Assembly: GCA_963922205.1 (NCBI GenBank)
Contig: CAWUHX010000044.1
Location: forward strand, 1,488,001-1,552,000
Source: Romanomermis culicivorax
Lineage: Eukaryota; Nematoda; Enoplea; Mermithida; Mermithidae
Direction: 5' to 3'
DNA: 64,000 bases
Made by a program: the position numbers and the translations under genes. The notes under the pieces are model-generated. The model saw only the letters and a program-made list of their open reading frames with translations. It searched no databases and was not told where the DNA came from. The stretch's first letter is position 1, and every line of letters begins with the position of its first letter. Shown in pieces: positions 30,601-64,000 of the stretch.

Positions 30601-32978
30601 ACTCTTGAACACTAAATTGGAATCTAATTCTTGAAATAATGTTCGGAAAAATGATTTTCCAGCATCCCAGAATGTCAATATACCCAAAAAAATTTTCGGC
30701 GCCTTGCGCCGGAAAGTACCATCTTTTTTGCGCTTTCACTTGTCATCATAGAGGACTTGACCATTGATTTCTTGTGTAATTCAAGTCAATTATGCTCTTG
30801 GATAGTTTGCTAGAAAAAATGTTCAACAACGCTTGTAGATTAGGCTTTTAGGTCGAACATTTCAATTTTTTCTCCAATTTTAATGAATTAACTTCTCTAA
30901 ATACACCGGAAGGCTTGAAAAAGCTCAAAAACAGTGCGATAAAGCGTCTGTGAGCATTTTTAAGCCAAAAAACGGATTTTAAGACGAAAAAAAATTTTTT
31001 CCACATGTGGAAAAAAATTTGACCCCTTTCCACATTTGTGGAAAAAAGTTCGTGGAAAAAAAACAGTGCATCAAAGTGACGGGTTGACTCCATAAATTCT
31101 ACAAAATTTGCATAGAAGACATCTTTGCGTTAATTTACCTATTTAGTGTTACACTTTTACAATAAATTTTTTACAATAAATTTTTTTATGTTTTGAATTA
31201 CTTGATGAAGATCATAAAGGCAAGAGTAAAGAAGTCTCTTATTAGTATTACCAGTGACCAGTGTATTAATATAATATCATGTTAAAAAAATCCTCGGCCT
31301 CGGCCTCGGCCTCGGCCGAGCCGAGGATTTCAAAAATCCTCGGCTCGGCCGAGGCCGAGGCTTTTTATTTTACCCTCGGCCGATCCCTGGTCAGCAAACA
31401 ACTTTATTGAAGAATTATTGATACAAAAGACAATAAATGTTCATTTTAAAGTAAAAAATTACTATATACCTGATTCCTGCAAAAAAATTACTAAAGGGCA
31501 AATTTTGGTCGTTTTCTATACCCTGGGACCCCTGACCGTGTGCATGTATGCCCAGCACTGGTGATAAGAAGTGGTCAATCCCATTCTTAATGAAGGAGGC
31601 ATTGAGGACATACATGTAACGGGGCCCCGAGGTGTGGGGGGTTTGGGCGACTTTTTTGGGGCCGGGGGTCAGTAATCCCCAAAATTTTAGGAGGTCTCTC
31701 AAGGGAACAAAATTCGATTTTTTCACAAAAAATAGTTCAAAAAATAGTAATTTTTTTCTGAAAAGACCGAAATTAGTGTATTCATGGCGCGAAGCGTCAA
31801 GAAAATTAACATTTTTTGCCATTTTTTGTTCAAAAATTGACATTTTTCATCAAAAAATTGACATTTTTCAGTATTTTTTCGACCCAAAATATGAGGGTCC
31901 CTACAGCTACCATATGGCTAGTTAATGGATTGGAAAATCCTTGGGGGGGGGCGATCGCCCAATGGCTAGCCATATGGTCGACGATTTCTAGGGGGGTTCC
32001 CATAGCACTTCCCCCCCCCCAATTACATGTATGATTGAGGAGCGAAAAGAAGGGTCTTTGTCATATCCAGAGGTATCCAAATAAGAGAAATATCCTTTCA
32101 AAATCGTGGATTCACTTATATCATGATTACTGTTACTGTCTGCTAGACCAAAAATAAAAAGTCATGTGCTTGTCGCTAGAAAAAACTCTTATCTCTGATG
32201 TTATCAATTTCAGAGCATCTGCAGATGAATCATCTCATGAATTACTCAGAAATACAGTTCATAGTAATGCATCCTGTTTTTTCTACTCAATGTTTTATCG
32301 TTATACATTTTCAGAAAATCATCAACGAGAGTATGTATGGACAAATTCGAGTCCATGCTTCGTGAAGGATGTCATGCCACGCTGCAACTTCTGACTGCTG
32401 ACGTTGAATCGTATCCTGCGCCCGTGGTAGTGAATGATATTGTACATACAAACAACACAAACAACGACGTTCAGATGGAATATATTGAACGTGAACTTAT
32501 GCATTTACAACCGGGCTTTGATATCGAACTTTTGGGCTTCGACGATTCACACAATGATCAGATTGCTATTAACGATGATAATAATTGCGGTGCAGAAACG
32601 AATCCAGAATCGAAGTCAACGATAGAATCTTCTACAATACCGAATTCACTGACAGTAAACAATATGCGACGTAGAATTGTAATAAACGAACATCGGCAAA
32701 AAAGTAGAATTCGTATTCGACGTAGTCGTTCTCCGTCACGCAACGTTATGAAAAAACGACGTTCTAAAACACCGCCGCATACGTCAGTATATTCCCGGCG
32801 TGGTTCGAGCCGCCGTTTCTCCGTAGATAACCCCTTGTCCAAACTTCCGACGTATGCGTATTCGAATTCTTCCAGCGCTGTGAAGCATAATGATACAAAT
32901 AAGCCAACATATAAATCAAGCTTCTTTGCTTTAAACCATAAATATAATAGGAAGATGCATTTTGATAATTTTGTCTAG
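27683..32978 (+). CDS. Predicted seven-exon acidic, Arg/Ser-rich protein
   Basis: Seven segments with AG/GT borders and mutually consistent phases can be chained: 27683-27724, 27767-27817, 28147-28242, 28394-28598, 28624-28643, 28792-28895 and 32315-32978, about 390 residues. The second and third encode LKLLRSTLLSSIR and DIDALREAALKSLNNQ, a repeated LRxxLLxS helix. The sixth is acidic (SEDEILTVDS, DLDEDIDD). The last ends with an RS region (RIRIRRSRSPSR and SRRGSSRRFS). The LRE..LKSL helix followed by an acidic and basic region faintly recalls ZFC3H1, an exosome-adaptor zinc-finger protein, but no zinc finger is present, so I do not assign it. The last intron (3.4 kb) holds nested hAT elements. 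Whether exons 1-6 belong with the last exon is inference from phase and spacing. Confidence 0.5.
29866..31389. mobile_element. hAT-like element with GGCCTCGGCCGAGG sub-terminal repeats
   Basis: The ends TAGGGATCGGCCGAGGG and CCCTCGGCCGATCCCTG form a TIR with perfect 8-bp TSD GTCAGCAA (29858-29865, 31390-31397). Both ends carry short CTCGGC tandem repeats. The D4 element is nested inside. Without it the element is about 485 bp. It lies in an intron of the gene at 27683-32978. Confidence 0.95.
30038..31068. mobile_element. D-family element D4 (1031 bp), intact ends
   Basis: The TIRs are CACTGTTTTTTTCC and GGAAAAAAAACAGTG with a perfect 8-bp TSD CATCAAAG (30030-30037, 31069-31076). The interior has a CCGGCGCTTCGCGCCGG hairpin (about 30198-30214) and a second hairpin near 30698, and no coding frame. 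This is the reference copy for family D. Confidence 0.95.
31609..32033. mobile_element. MITE family A, copy 2
   Basis: The TIRs are CATACATGTAAC and TTACATGTATG with a perfect 8-bp TSD ATTGAGGA (31601-31608, 32034-32041). It lies in the same intron, 282 bp before the last exon. Confidence 0.95.
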
Positions 32979-43180: not shown

Positions 43181-44268
43181 GATTGTGTCTAACTTTGGCG
43201 CCCATCTCACTTTGGCATCCAACGTTGTAAACCCCAAAGTGAGGCTGTTGTCTTGCTTTGGCGCCCGTCCCACTTTGGCGCCCACTGTTTAATAATGATC
43301 TTTCTTGGATGTCCTAACTTGGCGCCTGTCTCACTTTGGCACCTTATCATAGTCTGCTTTTCGGCATTCACACTGATCATTTATTTGACTGAATCCCCAA
43401 TCCCCGAAGGTCCTGTTTTCCCGAAATTCCTCTTTCCTCGGAGAATGCTTCAAAGCTTTTTCCCGAAAGTTCCTATTCCTCAAAATTGTCAAATTCCGTT
43501 TCCCTAAAAATAGAGGAAGGCTATTTTTAGATAGCATTTTGTAAATTGCTAATTTTCCCTGAGAACATTGTAAATTGTAGGATTTCGCACAAAATTCGCA
43601 CGATTATAAAAATTAGTGGAAAATTAGAAAAAAATTAAAAGTCATTTCACGTTTGATACGCTTAGCATCAACTTCGGATTGGGTAAGGCGCACAAGGTGG
43701 ATTGTGACTGTGATCCGGATTTTACACGAACTGTAGCATGACCTCTTTTTGAACAAATAAAAAAGATCTGGATTAACTCTACTTTCACAAACCAACATTG
43801 ACATTTCCACAATACAAAGACACGATAAAGCCGACTTCCTTGAAATCAGCCATTTTAGTTTCATGAAAAGTGTTTTTATTGAGTAAAGTTTAGCAGTGTA
43901 ACTGATTATTACATTTTCCGCCATTTAGAGAGAGAGAGAGCTATTCAGGGTGACCTGAGCTATTTATCACCATTATGGTCATGCAAAACTGCGTGTAAAA
44001 TTTGCACAGATGAAGACACATCGCTTGTTTATTAGTACGACGGGCGTCAAAGTGAGACACAGCGCCAAAGTAGGACGGGCGTCAAAGTGAGACGGGCGCC
44101 AAAGTGAGATGGGCGCCAAAGTGAGACACAGCTTGGGCGCCACAGTGAGACGAGGCGCCAAAGAGAGATAGGCGCCTAAGTGAGACACAGCTTGGGCGCC
44201 AAAGTGAGACGAGGCGCCAAAGTGAGACGGGCGCCTAAGTGAGACGGGCGCCAAAGTGAGACTGTACC
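43181..44268. mobile_element. MULE/Mutator-like element with GGCGCCAAAGTGAGAC arrays
   Basis: The termini GATTGTGTCTAACTTTGG and CCAAAGTGAGACTGTACC are an imperfect 22-bp TIR. Flanks AAATTTTT (43173-43180, 44269-44276) are identical. Just inside each end are tandem GGCGCCAAAGTGAGAC units in inverted orientation (about 43191-43345 and 44041-44263). Inverted sub-terminal tandem arrays are known in MULEs, which leave 8-11-bp duplications. The AT-only TSD is weak evidence. Confidence 0.7.
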
Positions 44269-44944: not shown

Positions 44945-45842
44945 GGGTAGGAATCATTAGCGCAGTCGGTTCAAAAGCGCATCCAAATGTTCAAAAGCGC
45001 AGTCAATGCAAATGGGTTCATAAGCGCAGTCAGTGATAAACTATTCCACAATAGTTTAAAGGGTCAAGTCGGTTTAAAAGCGCAGTCAATGCAAATGGGT
45101 TCAAAAGCGCAGTCAGTGATAAACTATTCCACAATAGTTTAAAGGGTCAAAAGCGCAGGCAACAGTTAGCTACAGACAAATTTCACCTAAAAATAGATAT
45201 AAATTTTTCGAAAACTGAGTGGGCATGCTACACGACAATAATACTTAAAAAATGCATCTCATTAAGAAAAAGCGTCTTTTTTTGGCCTCTTTTTGAGTGC
45301 TTCCAAAAATAGGCAACTTGTACATGGTGCTAAGTTCACAAAAGCGTTTTCGATTGTTGTTCCATCGTTTGTAAAATCGTTATTGTCAATTTGCTCCAAA
45401 TTGTACCATTCCAATGAATTTCGGTGAAGCGAGCTACATGTTAAATCAAACTCTGAAAACCAAGATTCTTTCGTATGCAAATCTTTTAAATTCGAATCAA
45501 CTTTACCAATTTCGTAAAAAATCGCAACAAGTTTTGAAAACCACTGGTGAACTCAACGAATATTGGCTTTGTTTGGAATGCGAAAAAATTTTGAAAACTC
45601 GTGGAACAGAAGATAATGAATTATATTCAACAATTATCGTTTGCAATGATACTATTTTGAAAAATCCAATGATTGAGCTTCACAGTGATTGCGATTACAG
45701 AAATTTTGGCGCCGTAACGAAACATTTGACTGCGCTTTTGAAACTTTTGGCTGCGCTTTTGATGCTCCTGCGCTATTGAAACAACTGGCTGCGCTTTTGA
45801 AGCAACTCGCTTTTGAATTGACTGCGCTTTTGACTCCCAATC
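44945..45842. mobile_element. MULE-like element with AAAAGCGCAGTC arrays
   Basis: Imperfect TIRs (GGGTAGGAATC and GACTCCCAATC) lie between identical 8-bp flanks GTAACATT (44937-44944, 45843-45850; nine bases if one mismatch is allowed). Sub-terminal tandem GCGCAGTC units run about 44957-45155, with opposite-strand counterparts about 45712-45835. A zinc-finger-like frame lies inside. Confidence 0.75.
45414..45779 (+). CDS. Short element-encoded ORF with a C2HC-like cluster
   Basis: The 121-residue frame lies within the MULE-like element. It reads KILSYANLLNSNQLYQFRKK, then YWLCLECEKILKTRG and ELHSDCDYR: C-X2-C followed about 40 residues later by H-X2-C. This layout resembles the FLYWCH/WRKY-type N-terminal fingers found in MULE proteins, but the match is distant. 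Its C-terminus runs into the inverted GCGCAGTC array (the LTALLKLLAALLMLL tail), so the true C-terminus is unclear. I see no DDE transposase core. It may be a truncated transposase or a DNA-binding accessory. Confidence 0.5.
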   Translation: MNFGEASYMLNQTLKTKILSYANLLNSNQLYQFRKKSQQVLKTTGELNEYWLCLECEKILKTRGTEDNELYSTIIVCNDTILKNPMIELHSDCDYRNFGAVTKHLTALLKLLAALLMLLRY

Positions 45843-46892: not shown

Positions 46893-49800
46893 GCGTATAC
46901 GGACATATTTTCTTCTCCGGTTGACTGCGGCAACTAGGCGAATAAATTGAGAAAAAAATATTTCAGCCTGGCATGCAGGTTTAATGCCCGCTCATCGAAT
47001 TATGCGGATATTTCGCTTTCTAAATCTTATTTGCAAATGAATAGACTATAGAACTTAGGTAATCGTAAAATGCGTGGTTTCCGCATCAGTGTTTTGAACC
47101 CACAATGTCTATGAAGTTTTACTAGATAACAATGTTCCGCAGAAAAGAGAATGTTTTGGTGCTCATTCCGGTGTAGTCCCAACATTGCCACCGTCTCAAC
47201 ACTGCCACCATCCCAACACTGCCATCATTTTTTAAAGTGGCATCATGGATAAAAATTTGGCCGTGACCGGACGTTAGAGCGCAGGACATGAAGCACAGGA
47301 TAATAGAGCTAATAGAGCGCAGGACATGGAGCACAGGACAATAGAGCCCGAGGACAATAGAGCACAGGACAATAGAGCGCAGCACAATAGAGCGCAGGGA
47401 CATTAGAGTACATTTGAAATGATTGATTTTTTCGAACCAACGTTCCCTGGTCTGCAATGAACGCGAATTTTAAATTAATAAATTTCTAAACATAAAAAAG
47501 AATACTTAGCAAGCAGCTTTATTTCAAAAGCGGACAAAATTTTTAAATGCTGACAAAACTGCGTGTGCCTTCTGAATGCGAGTTGAAAACAAAATGAAAC
47601 CATTTGATTCAAATGTTCAAAAATCAAATATTTGCGATTTTTGTGTCTTTCGCAACTTTTCTATGAAAGATTTGCATACTCCATATTTTTACTAACTACT
47701 CGAACAAGCATTACGTTCGTTTTTTTTTTGTTTCGTTCGATCATATTAAACTATTTAAGAACCGCGAAAATATGGACCGAAACGTAGTTATTTTTCAAAT
47801 TATTTCATTTTCGATTTTTTTTAAGCTTCAGCTCAGGTGTAGCTTAACTTGCCGCTTTGATGAAACCGGCCTCTGCGCTCTAATGTTCCCGCGCATTATT
47901 GTCCTGGGCAGTGTTTTTTTTGCCGGAGGCAGACGAGGCAGTATATAACTTGTATGTAATGCAATGTCTGCACACACCTTAATAAAACGCCAGGCACAGC
48001 GTGTACAGCGGTTAGTTTCGGACTGAAAAATTCTAGTAAAATTCAGAAATCAGGCAACCACCAAAAAGTAGTGATTCTTTGACCAGCAAGAACTTTTGTC
48101 ATTGCCCTGTACTAATCAGAAACTGTAAGCATAACATTATAAAGCAGACATGATAATAAAAGATTCTAAGAAATTGATTTTAAAATATTTCAACAACATT
48201 TTTTAGATTCTACAATGTGTGAGCTCAACATTTTTTCGGAAAATATATTTTCTTCAGTATTCGACAGTTTAATTTCTACATTTTTTCGTTCCAGTAGGTG
48301 TCTATAACGTGTCGGTGTCGAGAGTAGCTATTTTTCCCATGCTTGGCACAAAGAAGTGTATAGTGGAAAAAACACGTACTTTACAAAATGGTTGAATTTA
48401 CCCATTGTGTGGACTGTAAAGCTCCCAAATCTTTCCTAAATAGAAAAGATTTTTCCTAGACACAAAAAGCTTATATAGCTGCTGTTTGTGCACAAGTTAA
48501 AATGATTAAAGTGTGTTTACAAGTTAGAATGATCAGCTATATGCACCATAATCTAATCTGAATCTAGTGGCTAAATGATCATTAGAATTTGAATTAAATC
48601 TGTCATTACCTAACGGTTGACAAAGTACAAAAATTTGTATTAAATTTTACGCAAAGTGTATCGTAAAATTCCCGGATTATTGTTATCCACGGGAGAAGCG
48701 CTATTTTGAAACTCAATACCTTTGAAAAAAGGAGAGTCCCAAATCATATTGTCATCCTATGTAAAATATATTTTTAAAAAACTGATTTGAAGTTGGAAGA
48801 CTTCTGTGCTATCATGCAGTCGATCACCAGATCAGGAAACAACTTGAAACTAAAGGTGGTAACCGAAAAATTGAAAACAACGGTCAACACAGTGTCTGTA
48901 TCATGAAGGAAAAAATTATTAAATAGATTAAACGAGCCTTCCATTGTTTTGATTGAAAGTTTGGCTGTGATCTCGCTGCATCGATCACTTCAAAATGACC
49001 GGAGTTTAACATGGAAACTTTTCAAAACCAAGAAAAATAGAATTTCCTGAAATTCGTTTCAATTTCATTGTGTACAAAATAATTAATGTCATACAAAGCA
49101 TCTCTCATAAAAGTATTATGCTTTAGCTGTTTTTTTGATCAGAACAGTAAATCTCATTGCATTACTAGCTCTGAGTATCTGGACATTGTAACTAAGAGAA
49201 AGCTTTCACTATGTTTCTTAATATTCATTAATGATAATGTTAGCCATCATTGAGTTGGCAAACATAGTAATATCAGCAGGAAAGTTGAAATCCTAATTAC
49301 TACTCAAAAAGCGTTAAATATTAATAAGAGACGAAACAGATCTACAGAGGCACTAAAACTGTTAATTGAGTAATGATTCCTATGTGCACTTTAGCCGAAA
49401 CCAGATGAATAATGATACTAATGCTTAAATCGGTTCGAAGCGCAGGGGAAACTTTGAGGTTTTGAATTTTTAAAATGAAAATTGGCTTATCATACAATAA
49501 TTCGGACTTATCTTGCAATAAAAACAACTACATCATAACAATCTAAACAAACGTTTACCCAGGCAAGGAACAAACGTTTACCCAGGCGTTTCCAGGTTTT
49601 CTAGGTTGCTGAACACCCTGCTAATAGCAAAAGAATTTCATAAACTGGCACCAAAATTATGTTTGTGGAGTACTGTTTGCATACAAAAGTAGAAAATTTT
49701 ATTAAGGGCCGCTAAAAAAGACGTTCTTGAAGCGCACACTATAAGATTTTTAGCAGCCCTGGGCCGCCCCTCAGCTCCGCCCCCCCTAAAAATGGCCCTG

Positions 49801-51780
49801 ATAATGAGATATAACCTTGTGAAGTAAACGGGTGGTCTCTTTTCGGTGCACATTTGCACAACCAGTGCGTTCTGCATGCAATTTCTTCAGGTAGGCAGTA
49901 ACTTGCGCTATGTACAAGTGGACGAAAATCTTATGCGTGCAAAAAAACGCTTTTATAGGTTTACAAATTACAAGATGATGATTTTTGTGCTAGAGTTTGT
50001 CGATGTTTGGAGCACGTTATGTACCTGCTTCATTGAATTTTTTGATTGATTCAGTAAAATTGAGGAAATAAGTTATTTGTAAAACAGGAAATAAATTAGA
50101 AAATTGAGACACCCATCAAATGGCGGCAATGTTGTGATACTAGCAATGTTGGGATGGTGGCAATGTTGGAGCACCATCCTTATTCCATAGTAAACGTATA
50201 TTTTTGGTCACGATGTATTTTATACCTTTTTCATTTTTCAGCTTGTTTTGCATGATTTATTTTGTAGTGTCGTCTCACTCCTAATTTACCTCATTTTTTA
50301 CAACCATACTTGACACTAGGGTAACTTTTCTAATTCCAATCCAATTTCCTTTCTTTGAATAAGAATTGAATTTTCCCCACCAAGACGAGTGAAATTCCTG
50401 ACCCTACTCTTCTAAATTCCTGACTCTACTTTTGAATTTTTACCACTTTATCCCAAATGTTAGTTGTTTTTTCGAGGATCTTACATCCTAAGCTGTAAGG
50501 CTGCTTAATAATAACCTCCCAGTATGTGCACCATCTTAAATTCTTTATCGACTATATGCCTCGTAACTACAGTTTAATCTTTTGTCTTTACTAGCTTCGG
50601 AGTGCTCCCGTTCCCTACCGTTTCTTTCGCTTCTTTTCGCTCAGTTTCCAACTTTTTCATTTAATTTTCTCTTCAACTGTATCTCTCTTTCCACAACTGA
50701 ATTTCTTGCTGACCGATAATTTATTACCTTGACTAATGACGACGGTTTTATAGCAGCGAGGACAGATGATGCCGGAAACAGATTTGAAAATATGATTTCG
50801 ACCTTAATATTGAGCTTTTGGACTCCATTGTCAAACAAAATACGGATCTGAATTCTGTAAAAAAAAGTTTTCATTGCAGATCAAGTACAATTGATTGGGT
50901 TTTCTTGTCTGAATCAGAGATATTCGATAAATCTAAACTTTCATGAAACGCTGAACCGTAAGCTGCAAAGCAGAATTCCGGCGAAAACTTTTCTTCCATT
51001 GCTATTCTTATTGATGAGAGCGTTGTAGAGAAGAAAGTCAAACGTTTAAAAACCATCCCTTTTCGTTTTTTTAGTCAAGGGTCATATGCTATTTTCTCTC
51101 ATTTCTTTTTTTACGAAACATGAAATTTGTAAAAGTTCATATGCTAATTATTTTCACTGGTGAGAGTCGTGTAGCAAAGGAAAATGTTGATGGTCGAAAC
51201 CGTTGTCGTTCGCGAAAAACTTACCATTGCACAGAAGTTATATTCTACTATGTACTGGAAGTTTTCTCATTTTTTCACAAAAAAGATTTTTTCTCATTAT
51301 TTTCCTTGTATTTTCTTCGTTATAAAAAATGTGAGTCATCTTAAATTCTGTAAGTCCCTAAATTCCCTAAAATCCCGAATGCAGAAATGGGTTTCTTAAT
51401 TCAACACGTGCGAAATAATGTAGTTGAAATTCAGAATTGGCCCACTTTAGTTTATAAATTACCATAATATATTTTTGACGTAGTGTTCTAACCTGACGGA
51501 GTGCATATAAAATCGTGGGGTACTGATTACATGCATACCGCAAGATTTGGTATATGAACCGCTTAAATGCGTTGTGAATGATTACTCCGATTTTTTATAG
51601 CCTCATTGTCGTGAGGCTTCTCTTCTTTTTGAACTAACTTTCTTTCCGTTTAGATCAAAGATCATGGGCCAAAGTGAGTCATTTTTCTGCATACATTTTG
51701 AACAAACATTTTATTTTATCGCTGGGGGATGATTTTGTCATCATCAAAATCAGGGAAATCGTGAAACGAATTTTTAGTCA
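46893..51780. other. Repeat-rich intergenic region, 4.9 kb
   Basis: It holds (a) inverted CAATGTTG/GGATGGTGGCAATG blocks at about 47178-47230 and 50122-50172, the probable ends of a 3-kb element; (b) a minisatellite of AATAGAGCGCAGGAC-like units at 47277-47405, with inverse counterparts near 47873-47908; (c) an isolated CAGTGTTTTTTTTGCC terminus near 47909; and (d) a scrap of the AGCTGCAGCTTAA element near 47827-47870. No gene is supported. A possible untranslated DUSP exon (acceptor TTTCCGTTTAG, donor AAA then GTGAGT) lies at about 51655-51673. Confidence 0.5.
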
Positions 51781-52246
51781 ATGAACAGTATAACTGCCTG
51801 CGATTTGGCCGAAAAGCTGACCGCTAATGAAGAAAGCATTGTCTGTGGTCGGCCAGGTGGAAATCAAAGTTTATTTATTTTGGACTGCCGGCCGTCGCCC
51901 GCGTTCGAAAATTTGCACATAAAAACGTCGATCAATGTAACTTTTCCGTCCATATTATACAAGCGCCTGTTGAAAGGTACTTTATCGCCTCAGTCGATTA
52001 TTCCAACATCGTCAGTTACGGCTAGGAATCATTTTGCCGAAAATTATAAACAGTCGTCAATCGTTTTGGTGGACGATAACGACCGTGATAGTCGACATCG
52101 CAGGAAATCGACCGACGAGACGACGATAAACGTCTACAGAAATCACGGATCGAGCGAATGTTGTCCTCATAGCTGGGTTCCCACGGCGTCGACCTTACTG
52201 TACGAGAAACTCAGAAATGAAAATTGCGACGTCTGCTATGTTGAGG
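51781..52246 (+). CDS. MAP-kinase phosphatase (DUSP), rhodanese-like first coding exon
   Basis: The ATG frame encodes a non-catalytic rhodanese/CDC25-like domain. LFILDCRPSPAFENLHIKTS matches the MKP docking/substrate loop (LLDCRP..F...HI..), and INVTFPSILYKRLLKGTLS the basic kinase-interaction segment (..RR/KRLLKG). Near the end are HSWVPTASTLLYEKLRNEN and CYVEG, the family's L...GG turn. The frame ends at a donor (GAGG then GTATTT, phase 1). The family dephosphorylates MAP kinases. The catalytic exon with HCxxGxSR is not found in the window to the right. MITE C3 begins 83 bp past the donor. Confidence 0.85.
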
Positions 52247-52329
52247 GTATTTTTTTGTTTCTGATTGTGGCTCTACGTCGCAAGGGTCTAGCCGATTTGG
52301 TTCTCATTTACTTCGGCTGTACTTGCAAT

Positions 52330-52545
52330 CATACATGTCATTGGGGGCATTGCTATTCGAATCCCCCAAGATCGTTGTGCCCGCCCACCTGAGACCCTGG
52401 ACACTCCTGATTGAAAAATTGTCAAATATCCCTCCCTGACCTTTTCCGAAGATGATTTTTATGCATATTTTGTATGAAAAACATGCTTGGAGAGCTTTTT
52501 TTGTTTTTCTGCGCACCCACCCCTACCCCCTCTATATAAAGTCCA
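52330..52545 (-). mobile_element. MITE family C, copy 3, reverse orientation, DUSP intron
   Basis: It begins CATACATGTCATTGGG and contains, in reverse, the family-C blocks GCATATTTTGTATG, CGAAGATGATTTTTATGC and the CACCCACCCCTACCCC run. The second terminus is degraded and no TSD can be assigned. Confidence 0.65.
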
Positions 52546-52582: not shown

Positions 52583-52935
52583 CATACATGTAATTGGGGG
52601 AAGTGCTATGGGAACCCCCCCCCCCCAGAAATCGTCGACCATATGGCTAGCCATTGGGGGACCGCCCCCCCAGGATTTTCCAATCCAATGGCTAGCCATA
52701 TGATAGCCGTAGGGACCCCAATACTTTTGGTCGGAAAAATACTGAAAAATGTCAATTTTTCGAATAAAAATGTCAATTTTTATTCGAAAAATGGTCAAAA
52801 TGTGAATTTTCTTTGCGTTCCGCGCCATAGATACATTTTTTCGATCTTTTTAGGGAAAAATTACTATTTTTTGAACTATTTTTCGGACTTTTTTCGTGAA
52901 AAAATCGAATTTTTTTCCCTTGAGAGATATATAAT
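52583..52935. mobile_element. MITE family A, copy 3, truncated
   Basis: The left end CATACATGTAATTGGGG is intact with flank TTACAGCG (52575-52582). The sequence follows family A to about 52935 and then changes to unrelated DNA with a duplicated ATATAATTGAATGGA unit. Confidence 0.8.
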
Positions 52936-53717: not shown

Positions 53718-54156
53718 CATACATGTAATTAGAGAGAAGTGCTATGGGAACCCCCCCCCCCCCCAGAAATCGTCAACCATATGGCTAGCCATTGGGCGAC
53801 CGCCCCCAGGATTTTCCAATCCTATGGCTAGCCATATGGTAGCCGTGAGAACCCCCATATTCTTGGGCGGAAAAATACTGAAAAATGTTAATTTTTTGAT
53901 GAAAAATGTCAATTTTTGAACAAAAAATGGTCAAAAATGTGAATTTTCGGGGCGCTTCGCGCCATGAATACATTTTTTTGGTCTTTTTAGAAAAAATTAC
54001 TATTTTTTAAACTATTTTTTGGACTTTTTCGTGGAAAAAAATCGATTTTTTTCTTTGAGAGACCCCTCCCCCCAAAATTTTGGGAATTACCGACCCCCGG
54101 CCCCAAAAAGGTCGCCCAACCCTCCCCCCAGACCTCGGGGCTCGGTTACATGTATG
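53718..54156. mobile_element. MITE family A, copy 4 (439 bp)
   Basis: Both ends are present (CATACATGTAATT and GGTTACATGTATG). It carries a GGCGCTTCGCGCC hairpin near 53951. Its own flanks (GCTGTGGA and TTAGAGCG) do not match. The right flank TTAGAGCG agrees at 7 of 8 with the left flank of copy 3 (TTACAGCG). Confidence 0.85.
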
Positions 54157-54166
54157 TTAGAGCGCA

Positions 54167-54507
54167 GGGCCCGGTTTCATCAAAGAGACTTAAGCTCCGG
54201 CTAAGCTGCAGCTTAAGCTGTAGCTTGACTTTATACGTTATACTATTGTCGTTGAGCTGCAGCTCAGGTGTGGCTTAACTCATGCACACAAAACATATCG
54301 GTAAAGTTAAGCTGCAGCTGAGCTGCACTTTAACGACAATCGTATAGCATACAGAGTTAAGCTACAGCTCAGCTGCAGCTTATCTTTCTATGTTTTGTGT
54401 GTATGAGTCAAGCTGCAGCTGAGCTACAGCTTAACGCCAATGTTATAACGTGTAGAGTTAAGCTGCAGCTTAGCTGCAGCTTCAGTTTCTTTGATGAAAC
54501 CGGCCCC
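54167..54507. mobile_element. Palindromic MITE with AGCTGCAGCTTAA units
   Basis: The ends GGGCCCGGTTTCATCAAAG and CTTTGATGAAACCGGCCCC are a clear TIR. The interior is a ladder of AGCTGCAGCTTAA and its reverse. A fragment of the same family lies near 47827-47870. Confidence 0.8.
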
Positions 54508-54703: not shown

Positions 54704-55947
54704 TTTGAGGTATGTTGGTAAAAATGTTAGGCTTCTGTGTTAGGGTCACAATTAAGCAACAGTTCTAACCACAGGCTAACAACAACAATAAACACCAAAC
54801 TCTCCCAGACGTTTCACCAGATACTCGCCAGAACTTTCACCAGACCTCAGGCAGAACACCTTGGCACGTACCTCAGGAGTTCCTACCCAAGTCTCCAATC
54901 CTGACCTTATAGACTCCTTCCCCTACGCTCACAGAACAATACACTTACGGGTTCAAGTTGTATTGGGTAGCTAGTGGCGACGCCAAAATAACAATAATAA
55001 ACAAAAATATTGTAGAAAGACGATGGCGGCGTCGCTCCATAAAAACTAATCTTTTTAACACTAATAAAAAGACAGCAAAAACGCGAAACAGTGGCAGAAA
55101 TAACCTATGCAAATTTATCATTCTTTTCTCGCCACTTTTCGCCGCGTCCAACCGCCTGCGCACCGACGCCGGAAGCTGAACACGTGCACCTGAGCCCACC
55201 TCAACATCCCTCGGCCCTCAAAACCGACCAACGGGAGGTGAAAACCTTTCTGCAGCCTGAGTCTCATACTGAGGCCCCGACTGCATAACAGTTTTCCCCT
55301 CGGAAAACAAATTTTTGGGGCTACCCCCTCCAAGATGTGATCCAGCCCCTACCAGGTCCTTCAGGTGACGGCGACCTTGACCAATCCATTCGGCAGGGCA
55401 CTCCCTTTTGGGCTACCGGAAACGATCACGAACGTAGTTCGGCCTGGACTTTGACGTCCATCTGTGCCTAGATCCGGGGCGTCGCCGTTCCTCTTCTCCC
55501 ATTTCCTGGTTTTTACAACCTCGGTGATGAGGTGACCCAGGTGCGCTTCCTCCCAGGTCGGCCGCTCGCCACATCGCTCCGTCCAATACAAATCTACTCA
55601 GTAAAAAATATTTTCTATAAAATATTTCAGATTTACGAAATAAATTTATAAACGCAAAATAAAATTTCACGTCTTCATCTTTTTCAGGCCCTGAAAGTAA
55701 ACGAGAAAAAATACGAGGGCTATATACACGCCCGAAATAAGATGGACGGAAATAACGAATTTTGCCGGGCAATGTTTGAGCACCGGAAACGAGAAAATTT
55801 TAAAATTTAAAGCAACAATAAAACGAGATAATATATTTTTTTTTTGTATTTTGTATTTTATTTTTGTTTTTGTATTTTGTATTTTTTTGAAATAAAATTT
55901 GTACGAAATAACGAATTTTGGTCCAAAAAGTAAGCGGCTATATGAAA
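54704..55947. other. Non-coding, GC-richer block left of the exonuclease gene
   Basis: This is where the 3' LTR of the Gypsy element would lie if the exonuclease gene is part of it. The composition is richer in GC than the surroundings, and low-quality frames of 70-119 residues run in both directions. An A/T-rich (TATTTTGT)-type repeat lies at 55830-55890. I could not find matching LTR ends because the other LTR would be outside the window. Confidence 0.4.
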
Positions 55948-58900
55948 TTATTGTTGCCCGCCGCCACCATAACCGCTGTATTGGAAGCTACCACGGCGAG
56001 GGTAGGGACCACCCCGAGCTCCACGACCCCTGAGGAATCCCCCAAAAACTCCTCGAGGTTGGGCCGCACGAGGGGGTCCGCCCATCGCCTGACCTCTATA
56101 CGGTTGCGGATTAATCATCTTAAAGGGTCTACCTTGACCCTGTCCCTGACCCCAGCCCCGGCCATATCCCCCTCCAGTTCCCCTCTGGTACGAGCCCTGA
56201 GTGGAACTTACGGAAGATACTCCTGAAGCTGAGGTAGTGGACCTACCTTGACTTTGTTGATTCGCATACGGTAATTTGAATACTCCAGGCTGGTGCCGAC
56301 CCTGCGAGTGAGACGATTGTCGCGAGTGCTGGCTCCTAGTCCTGGATGCATCCCTAGGTTGTCTCTCCGTTAACATTGGAATCTTGAAGGGTTGCCCCTC
56401 CTCATCCTCGGCCTTCTGGAACTTACCAGAAAATTTCTGAACCATGTCCGACAACCTTCTTTTCGCTGCCATATCTACTGCAGTTTGTTGGTGCTCCTGC
56501 ATTCGGTTGGCGTACGCTTCCCTGAATGCAGTACTACCTTCTCCCCGCAGGTAGATAGAATAATACCTTTCTGTGACAAATGATTTGGCCCGTGCATCAA
56601 TTGCACCAATGTGTCTCGGGCCCAACTGTTGTTGTTCTAACTTTAGCAACACCATGGTACATAAGTATCTCACGGCTGCCATCACTATTTCCGCATCAAA
56701 ATGATGAAACCAATTTGGCATGAACTTGAGCCAAATATATTCCCAAATGGGCTCAGGAACGTTTACATGATCATACAGGAAACCACCTTGAACATCAAAG
56801 TGATCCCCGTAGTTCTTGTAAAGCTCCTCTACTCCATTATTCACTAATGCCCAGATGATTTGGTTCCTATTATCATCTGGCATATCCTGAGCAAAGAATT
56901 CGATCACCTCCGGTGTCGAAAAATCTATCCTTCCCTTCACCAAGGGAAACTTCTTATGGACGTCCCAGTAGTCTCTCAAAACAGAACTTAGGTACTCCAA
57001 AGTTACTTCCTTATCTCTACTTCTCTTGACCGATTTTGTCGGTTCCGACGCAGAGGGTTTAGAAACAACTTTTTTCCCTGAAGTGCTGCTCTGGTCCTGC
57101 TGAGAAGTCTTATCCACCTTAGACAAGGGCTTAGCCAAAGTACTTTTCGTCGTTGCACTTACCTGAGATGCAGACGATTTACTAGGTACTTTAGCCGAAG
57201 CAACCGTCGACTGCACCTGACTCGTAGAACTTTTGGTTCCAGGCATCAGGCTCGTCGGTGTAGTTCCCGTCTTGGATTTGGTTGAATCCGTCAATAAAGT
57301 TGTAGATCCTGCAAACTTCAAATCCACAGACGTAGAACTCCCTGTCTGTTCTCCTTCACCATCACTGATTTCAATAACATCCTCTTCATCTCTCTTTTTA
57401 GCCCTATTGGCCCTTCGGGCTAACTTTCGTCTTCCTAGTCTTTTAATTTGTTCGTCTGTACGACCTTCTGCTCTGAACTTTCTAACCTCTTCGGCAGTAT
57501 ACATACCTGGTATACCACCGTCCATACTTGGATCTCTGGGCGCTACTTGAACTGTCGGCGTAACCTTGCTGACCGCAGGCTGGATGACCTGCGTACTAGA
57601 AGGTTGCACCAGCAATTTCGGGATATGATAAGCAGTAGGCGGCTTGGCTGGAGCTTGCACGACTGTAGGCGCTGCCAGAGGCGTCGGCTGCGCCGTAAAA
57701 CCAGCCAATACTAGTTCCAGCTGCTTCTGCTGCTGATCTAATCTCGCTTTCTGCTCCGCAAGCTGCTTAGTAAAAATCTCTTTCTGTCTCTCGATTTCCT
57801 TTTCAGCTTGCTCCCTGAGCCTTGCTTCAATTTCCTCTATTGCTGGACTTGCAGCAATCGTTATCAGATTGCTTTCATCCAACATCGGCTCTGCCCTGAC
57901 ATCCATTCCAGAAAGTAAACTCTCTGTCTGATCCAATAATGAAGTTACCTGTGTTTCTTGATCAGGCTGTATCAACGATTCAACAGTGACCTCATTGTCC
58001 ACTTCTAAATCGTCTCCTACCTGATTCAAGTCTATGGGGGTGTTGAGGTCTGCAGGTATCACCTGTTGCTGTGCTTTCGCCGCAACAGGCTCAGCCTGCA
58101 TCCCCTGCACCTGATCCAAACTACTCATATCAACTCCAGATTGTTGACTCACCGTTGTGCTTACCTCAGTGCCTGTAACCGGCACTGCTGGCTGCTTACC
58201 TATCGGCGTCACTACAACCTTATCGCCAATATGCGTAATCGTAAAACCTGGAGCATCGGACGGCAATATCGGCTCAAAAAATGGCGGCTCGTAACCTGGA
58301 ACGTATTCCGGTTGATACGCTAAGACGCTCTTTTTCTGATTCTCCTTCGTTGCGTCCTCACTCATATCTATTGGGTATCGCAAACCTGGAACTCTAACAG
58401 CTATCTGGCGGAAGTAAAACCTCTGATAGCAGTACGGATTATCTTTGTACTGCGGACACTCCGCCAAATGCTTCCTTTTATCTTCCGGTCTTTGCTCCCA
58501 TGACTTTGTCTTAGGCCAAAATCGGATCGGCAGAAATCCGAAACGATTTCCCCAACATGTAATAGAATCGCCCTTGGTTGGCGTATGTACCTCTGTTACT
58601 GGAAGACTATTCAAAAATGACAAGTACTGACCATACCTATCTCCCCTCCACAACATCTTCAAGAGTTGTTCCTTTCCCTCAGGGCTAAAGGATCTCAAAT
58701 AGTTGTGGTCAAGGAGAGAGGTAAGGTACTCTTCCGCCTCCTCTCTGCAAGCTGGCCAAAACAAATGAAACGTAAGCGGAACTTTATTACACACTGACTC
58801 CAAATTCTTAAAATTGTCCTCGATCAATATTTCAGAATAAGGAGCGATATCCATACTCCAGTGTTGTCTTACATACGAGTCTTTACCGTTCGAAATTCTG

Positions 58901-61082
58901 ACCGGTTCATACTCGTGGTAATCAACTTCCAGACATGGTATCTCCAATAACTGCTTCGTTTCTTTTCTATACCTTAGATAATTCTCGTATAAAACCATAG
59001 ATACTGGTTCATCGAGTCTACTAAAACTCTTCCCTCGATTAACCATATCTACCACCTTGTTCATTGTTCGAGTTCTAATCTGCTTTTCCGACAAAGCTTC
59101 TTCGAACTCTTCATCCTCACTTACCGTATCATTACCGTCTACATTCTTACTTTTTTCTTTAACGGTATAATCAGGATGAATTCCTTTAGGTATACTCACG
59201 TCTCTTCCTCTCTTCGGATTTGCCTCGTAATGAGGGAAGCTGTACTCCACATAGCCTCCAAATGAGGTGTCCATTTGGGCAGCCATACGGGCATACGCTT
59301 CCTGTCTCATTACGTGGTAAATAGCCGACGACTGCGGCTCCTCTACTTCCGGACTTCCACAAAAAGTCTGCGGAAAATTCTCTCCATGTATGATATTAAA
59401 AAACCTGTACAACCTGTACGACATTATCTGGATTTGATCCACTTTCATCAAATCATGCGGAAAATACTGGAATCCGACCTCGACTTCCATAGCTAACTCA
59501 TAGTGGAAAAACGCTAAGAAAACCAACAATGAGTAGTAGGCGTCCAGTGCTGAATACCTGATTTCAAACTGCGTCAACGTGTGCCTACAGAATCGTTCAC
59601 GTTGCGCTCTCTGACGGAAATCGATTTGGAAATAACCAACGTCCGCCAGATACAGCTCCGTGAACAATCCTTTCAGCTTAAAAGTTTCCGGGCAAAGTCC
59701 CAACTTCCTGGACATTGCCAAAAATCTTCCGTTCAATTGATCTCCTACCTTGGCTACGTCATAATAACGGCCATACGAAGATGTAATTCTATACTTGATC
59801 TCTGCTGTCAGATCAACATCCTGGTGATTTCTGCCTGCGCCATTAACATTCCAGACGGCAACCAGATCTGTAACCAAGTTGTATCCAACGAGAAGCATGT
59901 CCGAATCTAAGAGCTCATGAATGAGCGTCCATTCCTTCGGCATGATTGTCGTAGTATCTACAACAAAAGTGTCTCCAGTCACCGTCGAGAAGCTAATGAC
60001 TCTCGCGAACTCCTTCCCTTTTGGGTTATCAACCCCAGAAGTCGCGAAAACCTTGCTTACATACTCTTGCGTAACTTTTTCGGTATCAAAACCGATAACT
60101 GGCTGTCCTCGAAACCTGCTCACCTTCAGAGTTTCGATCATCTCAGCCACCTTACCTATTTCGACCAATTTCGGTTCTGTTAGTTCCAACGGAAATCTTC
60201 CGAACGTCGTTGCAAACCATCGTTCCAATTCGCCGACTCTAACAATGCGCTTGACATTGTAGTCTAAAAAATTCAGGCGAAATGTTTACAACTTTTTAAT
60301 GAAAATTTTTCCCAAAGCGGACAAACATCGGTTAAATTCTACCTTCACCACAGATAGTAAGCACAAATAGGAAAAAGAAAAAGAAAATTGCAAGCAGGGG
60401 AAAATAAGGTACCAAACATATATTGGGTTAGTGTTGGCAGATAGTTAAACACAAGTGCGGCCCCGACTTCTACCTTATACGGGAGTACACGCACAGACCA
60501 CCTGCGTCTTCCATCAATCGACTGCTAGCCGTCTCAATCCAACGCCCAAAACGGCCTATCCAACTAATAAATTAAGAATTTCCAAGAAGAAATTTGAAAA
60601 TATATTTACTAATTTACCCAAAATGTGGAAATTCGTAGAAAATTAAATGAAGATGGAATTTAGAAATTTAAATAAATTTTGAAATTATCTACCCCTAGTC
60701 GACTAGTTGCTACACTCCACTTCTTCCCCATCACATAGACGAATTTATTCAACTCGCTATGTGTGTAGAGGAATAATGTAGTTTCGCAAAAAGTCCAAAT
60801 TTTGCGCTACGGGCAGCTTTGCCACACTTTTTCAAGTTGACAGAACAATTATGTTCCCACTAAATTTTTACAATTGTCTAGGCCTTCGTCTAGACACCCG
60901 TGGGCTATAACATCCTGCTTTGCCCAAGTAATTTTTAGATTAACTAAGTTTAATAACTTAGGTCGCTTACCATCGACTAAAAAATACCGATTGTTTTGCC
61001 GCACCTGCGGCTGTCCGTAGGTCACGTGGGGGTCCGTGACCAAATACTGTTTCGTCCGGCGTCCATTGGGGGGCCTGGACAT
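55948..61082 (-). CDS. Env-position gene with DEDDy 3'-5' exonuclease domain and RGG tail
   Basis: The main frame runs 60263 to 55948. An ATG frame at 61082 (MSRPPNGRR) can splice to it: donor GT near 60875, acceptor TTTTTTAG ending at 60264, both phase 1. Without this the frame opens only from a non-ATG codon (TTG at 60228). Counting from 60228, Exo I is IGFDTE (Asp48, Glu50), Exo II GYNLVTD (Asn117, Asp121) and Exo [14 protein letters not shown] (Tyr225, Asp229), as in DEDDy exonucleases of the RNase D/WRN type. Then come an unknown 600-residue region, a long acidic Gln-rich part, a coiled coil (about 830-880), a basic patch with a VIEIS-acidic motif, Ser/Thr/Lys-rich linker, an unknown helical domain and an RGG/GYG tail. 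The strand and position match the env slot of the Gypsy element. Splicing and membership are inference. Confidence 0.7.
60265..60874 (-). other. Candidate intron of the exonuclease gene
   Basis: Minus strand: the proposed donor is AATT then GTAAAA near 60875, a modest match to consensus. The acceptor is a T-rich tract ending ATTTTTTAG at 60264, a good match. The interior has no long frame. An alternative is use of a non-ATG start at 60228. Confidence 0.45.
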
Positions 61083-61554
61083 TCCTTCCGCTTCTTTCTC
61101 AAATTCTTCGAATTCTGCGCTATCAATTTTTGCAAAATTTTTTAAATTTTTTGAATATGAGCTGAAAAATCGACAAATTTTCCGCTTTCGCTACTTTTTG
61201 TCTATTTTCACTCTAAAACTCAGCGGTTCTCCCAATTCTTCCAATATTCACAGAATTGGGGGGCAACAACTTGATATTTCCTCCGAAATTAATCGGACTC
61301 ACGGAAGTTTAGAATTTAGGCCGCGAAAAAAGTTTTTAAAAATTTAGGTTTTTGCGAAGAGTGGTTTTTTACCAAGAATTTTGAGAAATTTTTAGATTTA
61401 CGCGAGAAAAATTTAAAAATACACGATAAATACGCGATAAATACATAAATAATTACAATTAATTACAATTTGTACTTAAATACATAATTGGGGACGAAAA
61501 AATATGGGGGGGTATTCATATGCACACACACACGCGAAAAACCAGCGCTACGCG
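61083..61554. other. Spacer between pol and the exonuclease gene
   Basis: 470 bp, AT-rich. No LTR ends, promoter motif or frame could be established. It could hold a subgenomic promoter or splice signals for the downstream gene. Confidence 0.4.
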
Positions 61555-64000
61555 CTACGGCAGTTTATAATTACTAATTTTTGAATCTACAGTAAACTGC
61601 GTGTCCTTAGATGACACGTCGTTAGACTGCAGCCATCTGCCGGTCTCGTAGCGAAAGTGCTTTAACCTGCTCACGGATACCACCTGCTTTTTCAGCGGCT
61701 CTCTCCAGTGAGCGATTTCAAGCACATTCTCTGATAATCTCCTATTATCAGTAACAACATACGGTCCTTGCCACGGCAGACCCAGTTTTTTCTGTTTATC
61801 GACTTTCAGCAAAACCCAATCATTGACGGAATAATCATGAGCTTTTGCTTTACGGTCAAAAAACTTTTTACTGCTCTCCGCAGCCTTCCTGATATTCTCT
61901 GAAATGGTCTCATAAGTTTCTACTAAGCTTTCGGTTAGTATATGCTTATAAGCCTCATAGTTCATTGGCAGAACTATGTTTCTAGCAACACCAATACTAA
62001 TGCCAAAATTTGCCTCATGACCTCTCAATAAGGCAAATGGAGAACATTTTGTTGAGGTATGAGGTGTGGAATTATACGCAAAAACGACAGATTGCAAATA
62101 TCTGTCCCACTTATCTGAATCCTCTATAGCAACTTTTCGCAACTGCTTGATCAAGGTTTGGTTAAACCTTTCAACCATTCCATTTCCTTGTGGATGGTAG
62201 GCAGTTGTGAAAATCTTCTGACACTCCAACAATTTACAGACTGACGTCATCAAATCAGCTGTAAAGCATGAACCGTTATCACTCAACAATTTCACCGGGG
62301 TTCCATGCCTAAACACAATATTCCGAAGAAAACTGTCCACAATGGTTACAGCAGATTGATCCGGGATCATTTCTGCTTCCACCCATTTTGTAAAGTAATC
62401 TTGAAATACTATCACATACGGTCTTTTCTCGCTCATGGGAGATATTCCCACAATATCTACAGAGACTATGTCAAATGGTCCTCTAGGAATGATTGGATTC
62501 AATGGCGGAATCGTAGCCTTTCCTGGAGTCGCAATTTGACATATCGGACAAAAGCTGATCCAGCTCCGAACATCCTTCTCGATGCTCGGCCACCAGAACC
62601 GCTTCTTAATAATAGCAAGGGTTCTCTTAAACCCTTGATGCGTCATCATTACTGCTCCATGATACTGATGCAGGACAACTTTTTTGAGAACAGAGGGGAA
62701 AACAATTTGATCCTCTGCCTCGCCAAAAGTCTCTCTATATAGTATCCCTTGATCGATATAAAAGCTACTTTGAGACTTAGTGCTACTACTAGCACCTAGT
62801 TTCTCGAAGATCACTTTTAGATCTTTATCCTTTCCTTGCAACTTTGACATCAAGGCGTTTGAGATAAGCCCTTTTGGTCTACCATCTTCAATCTCTGGGG
62901 CTTCTTCAAACTCCTTCTCCTTCGGTTCAAATATTCTCTTCACCTCTTCTTTAGGTTTTGCTTGCCCAGGAGGATGTCCTTTTTCCTCCTGCTGCAAGTT
63001 TTTCGCCATTTGTCTAGTGACTACCGCCTCAATTTCATATTTCTCAGGCGTTCGATAGTTATCAAATTCTGGAGAAATATTAAGTTGAGTTTCATCACTA
63101 ACACTATACTTTGAAGCCACTGAAGCTGTGGCCATCTTCACCGGAGTGAAGACTCCTACAGCCTCATCCACTTCATCTCCTCTGAGTTCCCGAAGTTGTT
63201 TCACTAAAACTTTGTGGTTTTGGTTAAGGACTTCGTCTTCAGTAAGAGATTTCACTTCTTCTTTCTGAAAGATAAGTTCCCATTTTGGTGGCAACTTCTC
63301 TTTCTGCTCATCCGGTTCCTCCTTCCTGGAGAGGAAATCTGCCATGGCATTCTGTCTGCCAGGCACATACTCCAACTTGTGATTAAACTGGCAAATGAAT
63401 GCGTACCACCTCTTGAGTTTGTCGTTAGTCTGTGTATTCACCCTCATTGATAATAATGGTTTGTGGTCAGTTTGAATCCTGACCTTTTGGCCCAAAAGAT
63501 AATGTTTATAAATTTTAAGGCCGTAAACCACAGCTAAGCATTCCCTTTCGGTGGCGCACCATTTCCTTTCTTCTGCCCGCAATATCCGACTATTGTAGGC
63601 AACTACCCAACGTTCCGAGTCAGTCTCTTGACATAACACTGCTCCCAATGCAATTCCACTGGCATCCGTTTGAAGAATGAATGGTGCAGATCCATCTAAA
63701 ATTGGATGTCTTAAGAAAGGTACTGAGGTCAATGCTACTTTGAGCTTCTCAAAAGTTGTGTAATGTAACTCCGTTACATTCCATGTTCCCTTCTTGCCTG
63801 TTAATTTGTACAAAGGTTCAGCTAGTGCTGCTAGGTCTGGTATAAATTTCTTACACCATTGTAGCATACCTAGGAATCTTTGCATTTTCTTAACAGAATC
63901 CGGGAATGGAAATTCCGTTATCGCCTTGACCTTCTTAGGATCCGGAGAAATTCCATTCGCATCCAAGATGTGTCCTAAAAAGTGCACCTTCTCGGGAAGA
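61555..64000 (-). CDS. Ty3/Gypsy-type pol: RT C-terminus, RNase H, integrase (5' end outside window)
   Basis: The frame is open at the window edge, so the true start is to the right. Counting from 63987: the RT thumb/connection (FLGH.L...G...DP.K, FLGMLQWCKKFIP) occupies about 1-95. RNase H (108-220) has Asp108, Glu149, Asp174 and Asp217. A linker of about 200 residues, longer than usual, follows. Integrase has a His443, His450, Cys480, Cys483 zinc finger, catalytic Asp511, Asp570 and Glu606 (35 residues between the last two) and a GPY/F-type module (LPWQGPYVV, near 735). The key residues are intact and no stop interrupts it, so this copy may be recent. Protease, RT core and gag would lie to the right. 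It ends 473 bp from the exonuclease gene on the same strand. Confidence 0.95.
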   Translation of the reverse strand, partial: LPEKVHFLGHILDANGISPDPKKVKAITEFPFPDSVKKMQRFLGMLQWCKKFIPDLAALAEPLYKLTGKKGTWNVTELHYTTFEKLKVALTSVPFLRHPILDGSAPFILQTDASGIALGAVLCQETDSERWVVAYNSRILRAEERKWCATERECLAVVYGLKIYKHYLLGQKVRIQTDHKPLLSMRVNTQTNDKLKRWYAFICQFNHKLEYVPGRQNAMADFLSRKEEPDEQKEKLPPKWELIFQKEEVKSLTEDEVLNQNHKVLVKQLRELRGDEVDEAVGVFTPVKMATASVASKYSVSDETQLNISPEFDNYRTPEKYEIEAVVTRQMAKNLQQEEKGHPPGQAKPKEEVKRIFEPKEKEFEEAPEIEDGRPKGLISNALMSKLQGKDKDLKVIFEKLGASSSTKSQSSFYIDQGILYRETFGEAEDQIVFPSVLKKVVLHQYHGAVMMTHQGFKRTLAIIKKRFWWPSIEKDVRSWISFCPICQIATPGKATIPPLNPIIPRGPFDIVSVDIVGISPMSEKRPYVIVFQDYFTKWVEAEMIPDQSAVTIVDSFLRNIVFRHGTPVKLLSDNGSCFTADLMTSVCKLLECQKIFTTAYHPQGNGMVERFNQTLIKQLRKVAIEDSDKWDRYLQSVVFAYNSTPHTSTKCSPFALLRGHEANFGISIGVARNIVLPMNYEAYKHILTESLVETYETISENIRKAAESSKKFFDRKAKAHDYSVNDWVLLKVDKQKKLGLPWQGPYVVTDNRRLSENVLEIAHWREPLKKQVVSVSRLKHFRYETGRWLQSNDVSSKDTQFTVDSKISNYKLP

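Follow-up and report, generated by a model that had tools for sequence, protein, structure and literature searches.

The window, that is, the whole stretch of 64,000 nucleotides analysed here, comes from Romanomermis culicivorax, a mosquito-parasitic mermithid nematode. Near its right end lies a Ty3/gypsy-type retroelement that has long terminal repeats (LTRs) and is present in the genome in many copies. Between pol and the 3' LTR this element has a third gene, further denoted ORF3 (open reading frame 3), whose N-terminal domain resembles exonucleases of the DEDDy type. The features of the locus are as follows.

61555..63999, minus strand: 3' part of gag-pol (end of the reverse transcriptase, RNase H, and integrase with an H2C2 zinc finger), identified with Pfam in a single 2,258-codon frame that extends past the right window end.
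61162..61169, minus strand: the sequence TTTTTCAG, which precedes exon 1 in all 20 copies; it resembles a splice acceptor and may serve an LTR donor or a spliced leader.
60971..61082, minus strand: predicted exon 1 of ORF3 (37 codons and 1 base), with the start codon at 61082 and the donor GTAAGC.
60264..60970, minus strand: putative ORF3 intron of 707 nt, with the GTAAGC donor and the acceptor TTTTTTAG that ends at 60264 and joins the exons in frame.
60690..60820, minus strand: conserved RNA hairpin within the intron (z-score -5.95, and -4.5 in a diverged family).
55948..60263, minus strand: predicted exon 2 of ORF3, an open frame, including the stop codon.
59421..60237, minus strand: DEDDy exonuclease-like domain, approximately residues 17-288 of the open frame, with D67xE69, N136xxxD140 and Y244xxxD248.
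57661..57840, minus strand: coiled-coil-like stretch, approximately residues 816-875, judged by eye.
56416..57000, minus strand: orphan domain, approximately residues 1096-1290, the most constrained part of the protein, for which no relatives were found outside this ORF3.
55951..56415, minus strand: Gly/Arg/Gln-rich tail of the RGG type, net positive, as read from the sequence.
54725..55206, minus strand: 3' LTR (TGTTGAGG...CCTAACA); a conserved GTAAGT near 54948 resembles a splice donor.

The Ty3/gypsy-type assignment is that of the Pfam profiles: protease, reverse transcriptase, RNase H and integrase follow in this order in two pieces of the gag-pol frame, with the reverse transcriptase and protease mostly beyond the right window end. 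No Pfam gag family matches the 2,258-codon frame; the putative gag part is assigned by position and content, and it carries an RGG stretch of its own. In all three other copies whose 5' ends were fetched, near-identical LTR pairs (479-480 bp, with 1, 1 and 2 base differences) enclose gag-pol together with ORF3. These LTRs are of the TG...CA type, starting with TGTTGAGG and ending with CCTAACA, and are flanked by the 4-bp target-site duplications catc, aaca and aaat, while TGGTGGACTCTTAACG, the putative primer-binding site, sits 2 nt past the 5' LTR. The element is about 14.1 kb long (14,088 bp in one copy, by its coordinates), which is long for the Ty3/gypsy elements. The 5' LTR of the window copy lies past the right window end, at the contig end (locus L029). 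The two LTRs of this copy share only 88.5% identity and lack a visible target duplication. Two LTR subtypes may have recombined here, or the copy may reflect a join in the assembly.

ORF3 lies downstream of pol on the same strand, as had been claimed in the first-pass annotation, which had also suggested looking for both LTRs and for further copies with the same gene pair; its open frame starts 1.27 kb from pol. Such copies exist: among the matches listed, 24 of the 32 ORF3 copies are preceded by a pol of the same strand at a distance of 1,262-1,280 bp, and none was seen for the other eight. The pol-ORF3 alignment is unbroken at least to window position 59794 in all 19 other copies fetched, so that the LTRs between 61555 and 60300 that would have separated the two genes are not there. 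In 14 of these copies a single alignment block reaches the end of the 3' LTR (13 blocks end at 54720-54725 and one at 54743), and the remaining five have deletions, insertions or breaks before it. The same annotation had kept the alternative that the gene belongs to the host, or to another retroelement, and merely adjoins pol. In favour of this, ORF3 has a putative intron of its own and is most similar to families of cellular exonucleases; but the enclosing LTRs and target duplications, the collinearity with pol and the fixed distance from it rule out a host gene or a chance neighbour, and we assign practically no probability to this explanation.

Several individual copies show rearrangements. 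L011 and L025 share one internal ORF3 deletion (from window position 59794 to about 56259) and perhaps represent a non-autonomous derivative that itself spread. In L023 (C13:1340601-1350600) a truncated ORF3 is followed by an LTR and then by the gag start of the next copy; the two elements are 12.4 kb apart and look like a tandem pair with a common LTR. In L013, from about position 2825, ORF3 is broken at window position 58911 and followed by a 2,181-codon open frame whose kind was not recognised, probably an inserted element.

The v2 assembly of R. culicivorax is described as having 359.1 Mb in 595 scaffolds (PMC10879605). The copy counts obtained from it are lower bounds, as they are based on the matches listed. 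ORF3 is full-length in all 32 scored copies (at least 32 in the genome), which are 98-100% identical, 30 of them having no stops; for pol, at least 55 copies were scored and 53 have no stops. In the 20 loci considered in detail, the 19 fetched and the window, 14 retain an ORF3 frame that is 1,443 codons or longer and contains every motif, and ORF3 is truncated, interrupted or deleted in the other six. The ratio of nonsynonymous to synonymous polymorphism (pN/pS) is 0.108 for ORF3 (14 copies) and 0.079 for pol (an 814-codon piece, eight copies), both calculated from copies with open frames, a choice that favours low ratios. Therefore purifying selection holds ORF3 about as strictly as pol. Since there are at least 32 copies at this level of identity, and since the ratio is this low, the frame is more than a chance one.

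The first-pass annotation had placed the gene at 55948..61082. The open frame is real, but as a single frame it spans 60285-55948 on the minus strand, 1,445 codons stop to stop, and 61082 is the start of a separate exon 1; the two exons, with a putative splice between them, give a predicted protein of 1,475 residues. Of 20 copies, the window included, 19 contain a recognisable exon 1 with its donor; the remaining one (L018) was missed by the search word. The 18 variable sites of exon 1 are distributed as 12 in the third, four in the first and two in the second codon position. The stretch between the upstream acceptor and exon 1 is non-coding. The GTAAGT donor is present in every LTR in which the anchor could be located, 21 in total (four 5' and 17 3' LTRs). 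Together with the conserved TTTTTCAG acceptor, this is consistent with expression of ORF3 from a spliced subgenomic RNA, produced either by splicing of the LTR leader or by trans-splicing of a spliced leader.

We also considered a leader peptide that would be encoded by the LTR and continue across the 79 nt preceding exon 1. Although the window copy and a few more have this frame open, most of the 20 copies have it disrupted, and the idea was rejected. A frame of 31-32 codons (MERRR...) is seen in the LTRs, e.g. at window positions 55029-54936; it ends near the LTR splice donor in 15 of 21 LTRs and is frameshifted in six, and is possibly an upstream ORF.

The exonuclease-like domain contains the three DEDDy motifs, DxE (in FDTE, residues 66-69 of the open frame), NxxxD and YxxxD, in the order noticed in the first-pass annotation, and they are invariant in 12 aligned copies. 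When the first 300 residues were shuffled 20,000 times, a pattern made of these motifs matched 23 of the shuffled sequences; this control is weak, because the pattern was devised after the motifs had been seen and because its third element hit a different Tyr-xxx-Asp (YFQID) in the real protein. The Pfam family DNA_pol_A_exo1 (PF01612) matches the domain piece with E=4.5e-4 (20.5 bits), and it is the sole Pfam family matched by this piece in all 12 aligned copies (best E 2.5e-4). The NCBIfam model of PolA-type exonucleases yields E of 0.0026, far below the cut-off of the model. The nearest solved structure by sequence is EXD2 (E=0.68), with FDTE and YxxxD aligned in order.

Several observations weigh against this assignment. 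The PF01612 score is below the curated cut-off of 23.6 bits, and with the whole protein as the query the match has only E=0.032. The EXD2 match is not significant, and a profile of the 12 copies gives no better match in PDB. The AlphaFold model of the domain, made from a single sequence without homologues, has a predicted local distance difference test (pLDDT) score of 33 and neither confirms nor refutes a DEDD fold. The exonuclease activity itself is a prediction, as are the splicing and expression of ORF3. Since PF01612 stays below the curated threshold, we use the term "DEDDy-like". With this wording we are highly confident that the element encodes a DEDDy-like ORF3, and we consider it probable, at a clearly lower level of confidence, that the protein is catalytically active.

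Relatives of the domain are few. No homologues of residues 1-500 were found among full-length proteins at E<=1e-3, a protein search with the exonuclease-like domain yielded only two R. culicivorax fragments, and a search of viral contigs revealed no ORF3 relatives. The protein P0001 has at least 130 genome matches, nearly all of them across its coiled-coil part. Via P0001 we reached the locus L033, a single decayed copy of an older, diverged family with stops and frameshifts. L034, fetched as well, is a frameshifted copy (94%) of the main family. L033 keeps the whole ORF3 architecture, namely the exonuclease-like domain, the middle region, the coiled coil, the C-terminal domain (with a deletion) and the RGG-type tail. 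Its exonuclease-like domain has two stops and is 72% identical to that of the main family over 271 residues, at a synonymous divergence (dS) of about 1.1 and a ratio of nonsynonymous to synonymous divergence (dN/dS) of 0.15. All six motif residues are the same in L033 and in the main family.

This retention bears on the explanation that the exonuclease fold merely binds RNA or protein, with ORF3 as a structural component of the particle. The regional pN/pS values are consistent with such a role: the orphan C-terminal domain is held tighter than the exonuclease-like domain (0.051 against 0.098), the other values being 0.093 for the middle region, 0.19 for the linker and 0.139 for the tail; moreover, the Gag of the element likewise has an RGG stretch. 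However, retention of six out of six motif residues over dS of about 1.1 would be unexpected in a dead enzyme, and we consider a purely structural role unlikely. An active enzyme could also be imagined to proofread, editing mismatched 3' ends of cDNA while this unusually long element is reverse-transcribed. The length of about 14.1 kb and, as a precedent in large RNA genomes, the coronavirus-type ExoN (PMC7968707) may be cited in its favour. On the other hand, ORF3 is not fused to the reverse transcriptase, and divergence between family members reaches 6%, which makes proofreading quite improbable.

Beyond the exonuclease-like domain, the first-pass annotation had described a coiled coil, a basic/acidic patch and an RGG tail, and all three are there, the first as a coiled-coil-like stretch. 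A Ser/Thr/Lys-rich linker lies between this stretch and the orphan domain. For residues approximately 300-690 no known relatives were found in Pfam or, by sequence, in PDB. Sequence comparison with PDB of the whole protein and of its middle and C-terminal pieces yielded nothing convincing, and a protein search with the C-terminal region gave no homologues at E<=1. The single-sequence AlphaFold model of the C-terminal domain has pLDDT of 42. The possibility that ORF3 is a duplicate of the element's own Gag was rejected, the best BLAST match having E of 1.0 and covering just the two RGG-type tails.

In errantiviruses and retroviruses, the gene situated 3' of pol is env. ORF3 resembles it in being a third gene in this position, apparently expressed from a spliced RNA, which would be compatible with an envelope-like protein in the usual slot. 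The difference is in the protein itself: the 1,445-codon frame, scanned without exon 1, contains no convincing transmembrane segment (the best 19-residue hydropathy is 1.58), no furin-like protease site and no convincing glycosylation pattern, with a single N-glycosylation motif. Hence ORF3 is not considered an envelope protein, and we give the envelope reading very little credence. One R. culicivorax UniRef protein, P0002, is a gene model that joins pieces of ORF3 to a hydrophobic, signal-peptide-like sequence; there may be an env-like gene in a family related to this element.

One of five intron pieces stands out by its fold. The segment 60820-60690 folds with z of -5.95, none of 200 shuffles being as stable, whereas four other intron pieces have z from -1.8 to 0.7. 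The hairpin is nearly invariant across 20 copies, and it is identical in L027, whose ORF3 differs from that of the window at 8-20% of synonymous sites, depending on the region. A second block of low variation at window positions 60399-60548 (4-8% variable columns) has no significant fold.

Between the families, L033 is 76.7% identical to the window over 630 aligned columns that cover the final 32 nt of exon 1 and most of the intron, in contrast to the synonymous sites of the exonuclease-like domain, 57% of which differ. The L033 hairpin has z of -4.5 (again, none of 200 shuffles is as stable). Of its 43 pairs, 27 are unchanged, eight are changed on one side, three have compensatory changes on both sides and five are broken. 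The conservation of the hairpin between the families is only moderately supported, because the structure was derived from one of the two sequences; the comparison also involves a single decayed copy, and the five broken pairs count against it. As splicing would remove the hairpin, it could act only on unspliced RNA, and the chances that it does so seem to us evenly balanced. Its role might be in the export or packaging of the genomic RNA.

Taken together, these data may be explained as follows. ORF3 would be made from a spliced subgenomic mRNA consisting of exon 1 and exon 2, the upstream acceptor being joined either to the LTR donor or to a spliced leader. The N-terminal part of the protein would be a 3'-5' exonuclease of the DEDDy type, the coiled coil would provide for multimerisation, and the orphan domain and the RGG tail would keep the protein on RNA. 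ORF3 could then enter the ribonucleoprotein of the element and trim 3' ends of nucleic acids during replication, RNA being a likelier substrate than cDNA. The hairpin would persist only in the unspliced genomic RNA and could serve there as an export or packaging mark, the spliced RNA being the ORF3 message. As a whole, this explanation appears to us fairly probable; that 3' trimming in the ribonucleoprotein is the main role of ORF3 is a tentative assignment, although the likeliest of the roles considered.

Counter-defence would be a different use of the same activities: an RNA-binding exonuclease, with the RGG tail as the binding part, could trim or degrade small RNAs directed against the element. 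In animals, small RNAs are indeed trimmed by DEDDy enzymes, such as Nibbler (PMC5622571), and R. culicivorax is reported to have neither Piwi nor triphosphorylated (22G-type) small RNAs, and thus to depend on other small-RNA routes (PMC4323106). The Piwi-less host makes counter-silencing amenable to testing, without in itself being an argument for it. Moreover, a suppressor acting in trans would benefit all copies, so that selection for an intact ORF3 in each copy would require a cis preference. We regard counter-defence as possible but rather unlikely. Equally doubtful is the broadest picture, that of a lineage in which an RNA-tethered 3'-5' exonuclease replaced the envelope and either edits 3' ends in replication or disarms small-RNA silencing in a Piwi-less nematode, while a splicing switch with a conserved structured intron marks the unspliced genome.

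The Rfam scan of the 64 kb gave nothing at the gathering score, and the tRNA finder found no tRNA genes in the window. A palindromic unit resembling miniature inverted-repeat transposable elements, with 50-nt inverted arms that are 90% complementary, lies near the 3' LTR end at window positions 54167-54507. A dispersed repeat has four window copies that are 84-87% identical (53718-54156, 52583-52927, 31608-31996 and 10179-10614), and short tandem arrays, including units of the GGGCGCCAAAGTGAGAC type, occur at 44042-44261, 44989-45150 and 47275-47378. By eye, the open frame at 51778-52392 (plus strand) resembles a dual-specificity phosphatase exon, and the one at 19810-20508 (minus strand) a fragment of a non-LTR reverse transcriptase.

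The rotifer precedent that the first-pass annotation had cited is real: ORF3s of the DEDDy type are described in the LTR retrotransposons Juno and Vesta of bdelloid rotifers, their exact role being unknown (PMC5408684). As in the nematode element, a DEDDy/DnaQ-like exonuclease ORF is described there downstream of pol in an LTR element without env (PMC5408684). Unlike the intact DEDD seen here, the rotifer tetrad is altered to DEED, and the rotifer ORFs are said to have neither coiled-coil nor transmembrane domains (PMC5408684), whereas ORF3 has a coiled-coil-like stretch, as judged by eye. By comparison with the published description, the protein of 1,475 residues, the orphan domain, the RGG tail and the structured intron also set ORF3 apart. 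The rotifer Terminons, giant Athena/Penelope-like elements with DEDDy ORFs, are similar in employing such an exonuclease as an accessory function of a retroelement, but belong to another retroelement class, described without LTRs of the type seen here (PMC6431247). A DnaQ-like exonuclease is named a known accessory domain, with reference to the rotifer work, in PMC6338049, and the statement is repeated in PMC5718144; PMC5348765, cited by PMC6338049, has neither DnaQ nor exonuclease in its text. Cellular DEDDy exonucleases, EXD2 and the DNA_pol_A_exo1 family, share with ORF3 the order of motifs and the PF01612 match, and EXD2 is aligned in order at both ends, but ORF3 is very diverged, its Pfam score being below the cut-off, and has about 1,150 extra residues without known relatives.

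In the open-licence literature searched, we found no report of a DEDDy, DnaQ or exonuclease ORF in a nematode LTR element. A DEDDy ORF3 in LTR elements was already known from rotifers, and what is new here is the intact DEDD, the size, the coiled coil, the orphan domain, the RGG tail and the structured intron. In the literature searched, DEDDy ORFs of retroelements have been a rotifer oddity whose use is unknown; now the arrangement recurs in another animal phylum. Selection on ORF3 nearly as strong as that on pol, in a young high-copy element, means that the gene matters for the success of the retroelement. Some retroviruses use export elements on the unspliced genome, and the conserved intron hairpin suggests that here, too, an intron of a retroelement may be used as a signal on it. 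Many near-identical copies are available, as are an older diverged family and long-read and small-RNA data for the host, so that the function of ORF3 is open to experimental test.

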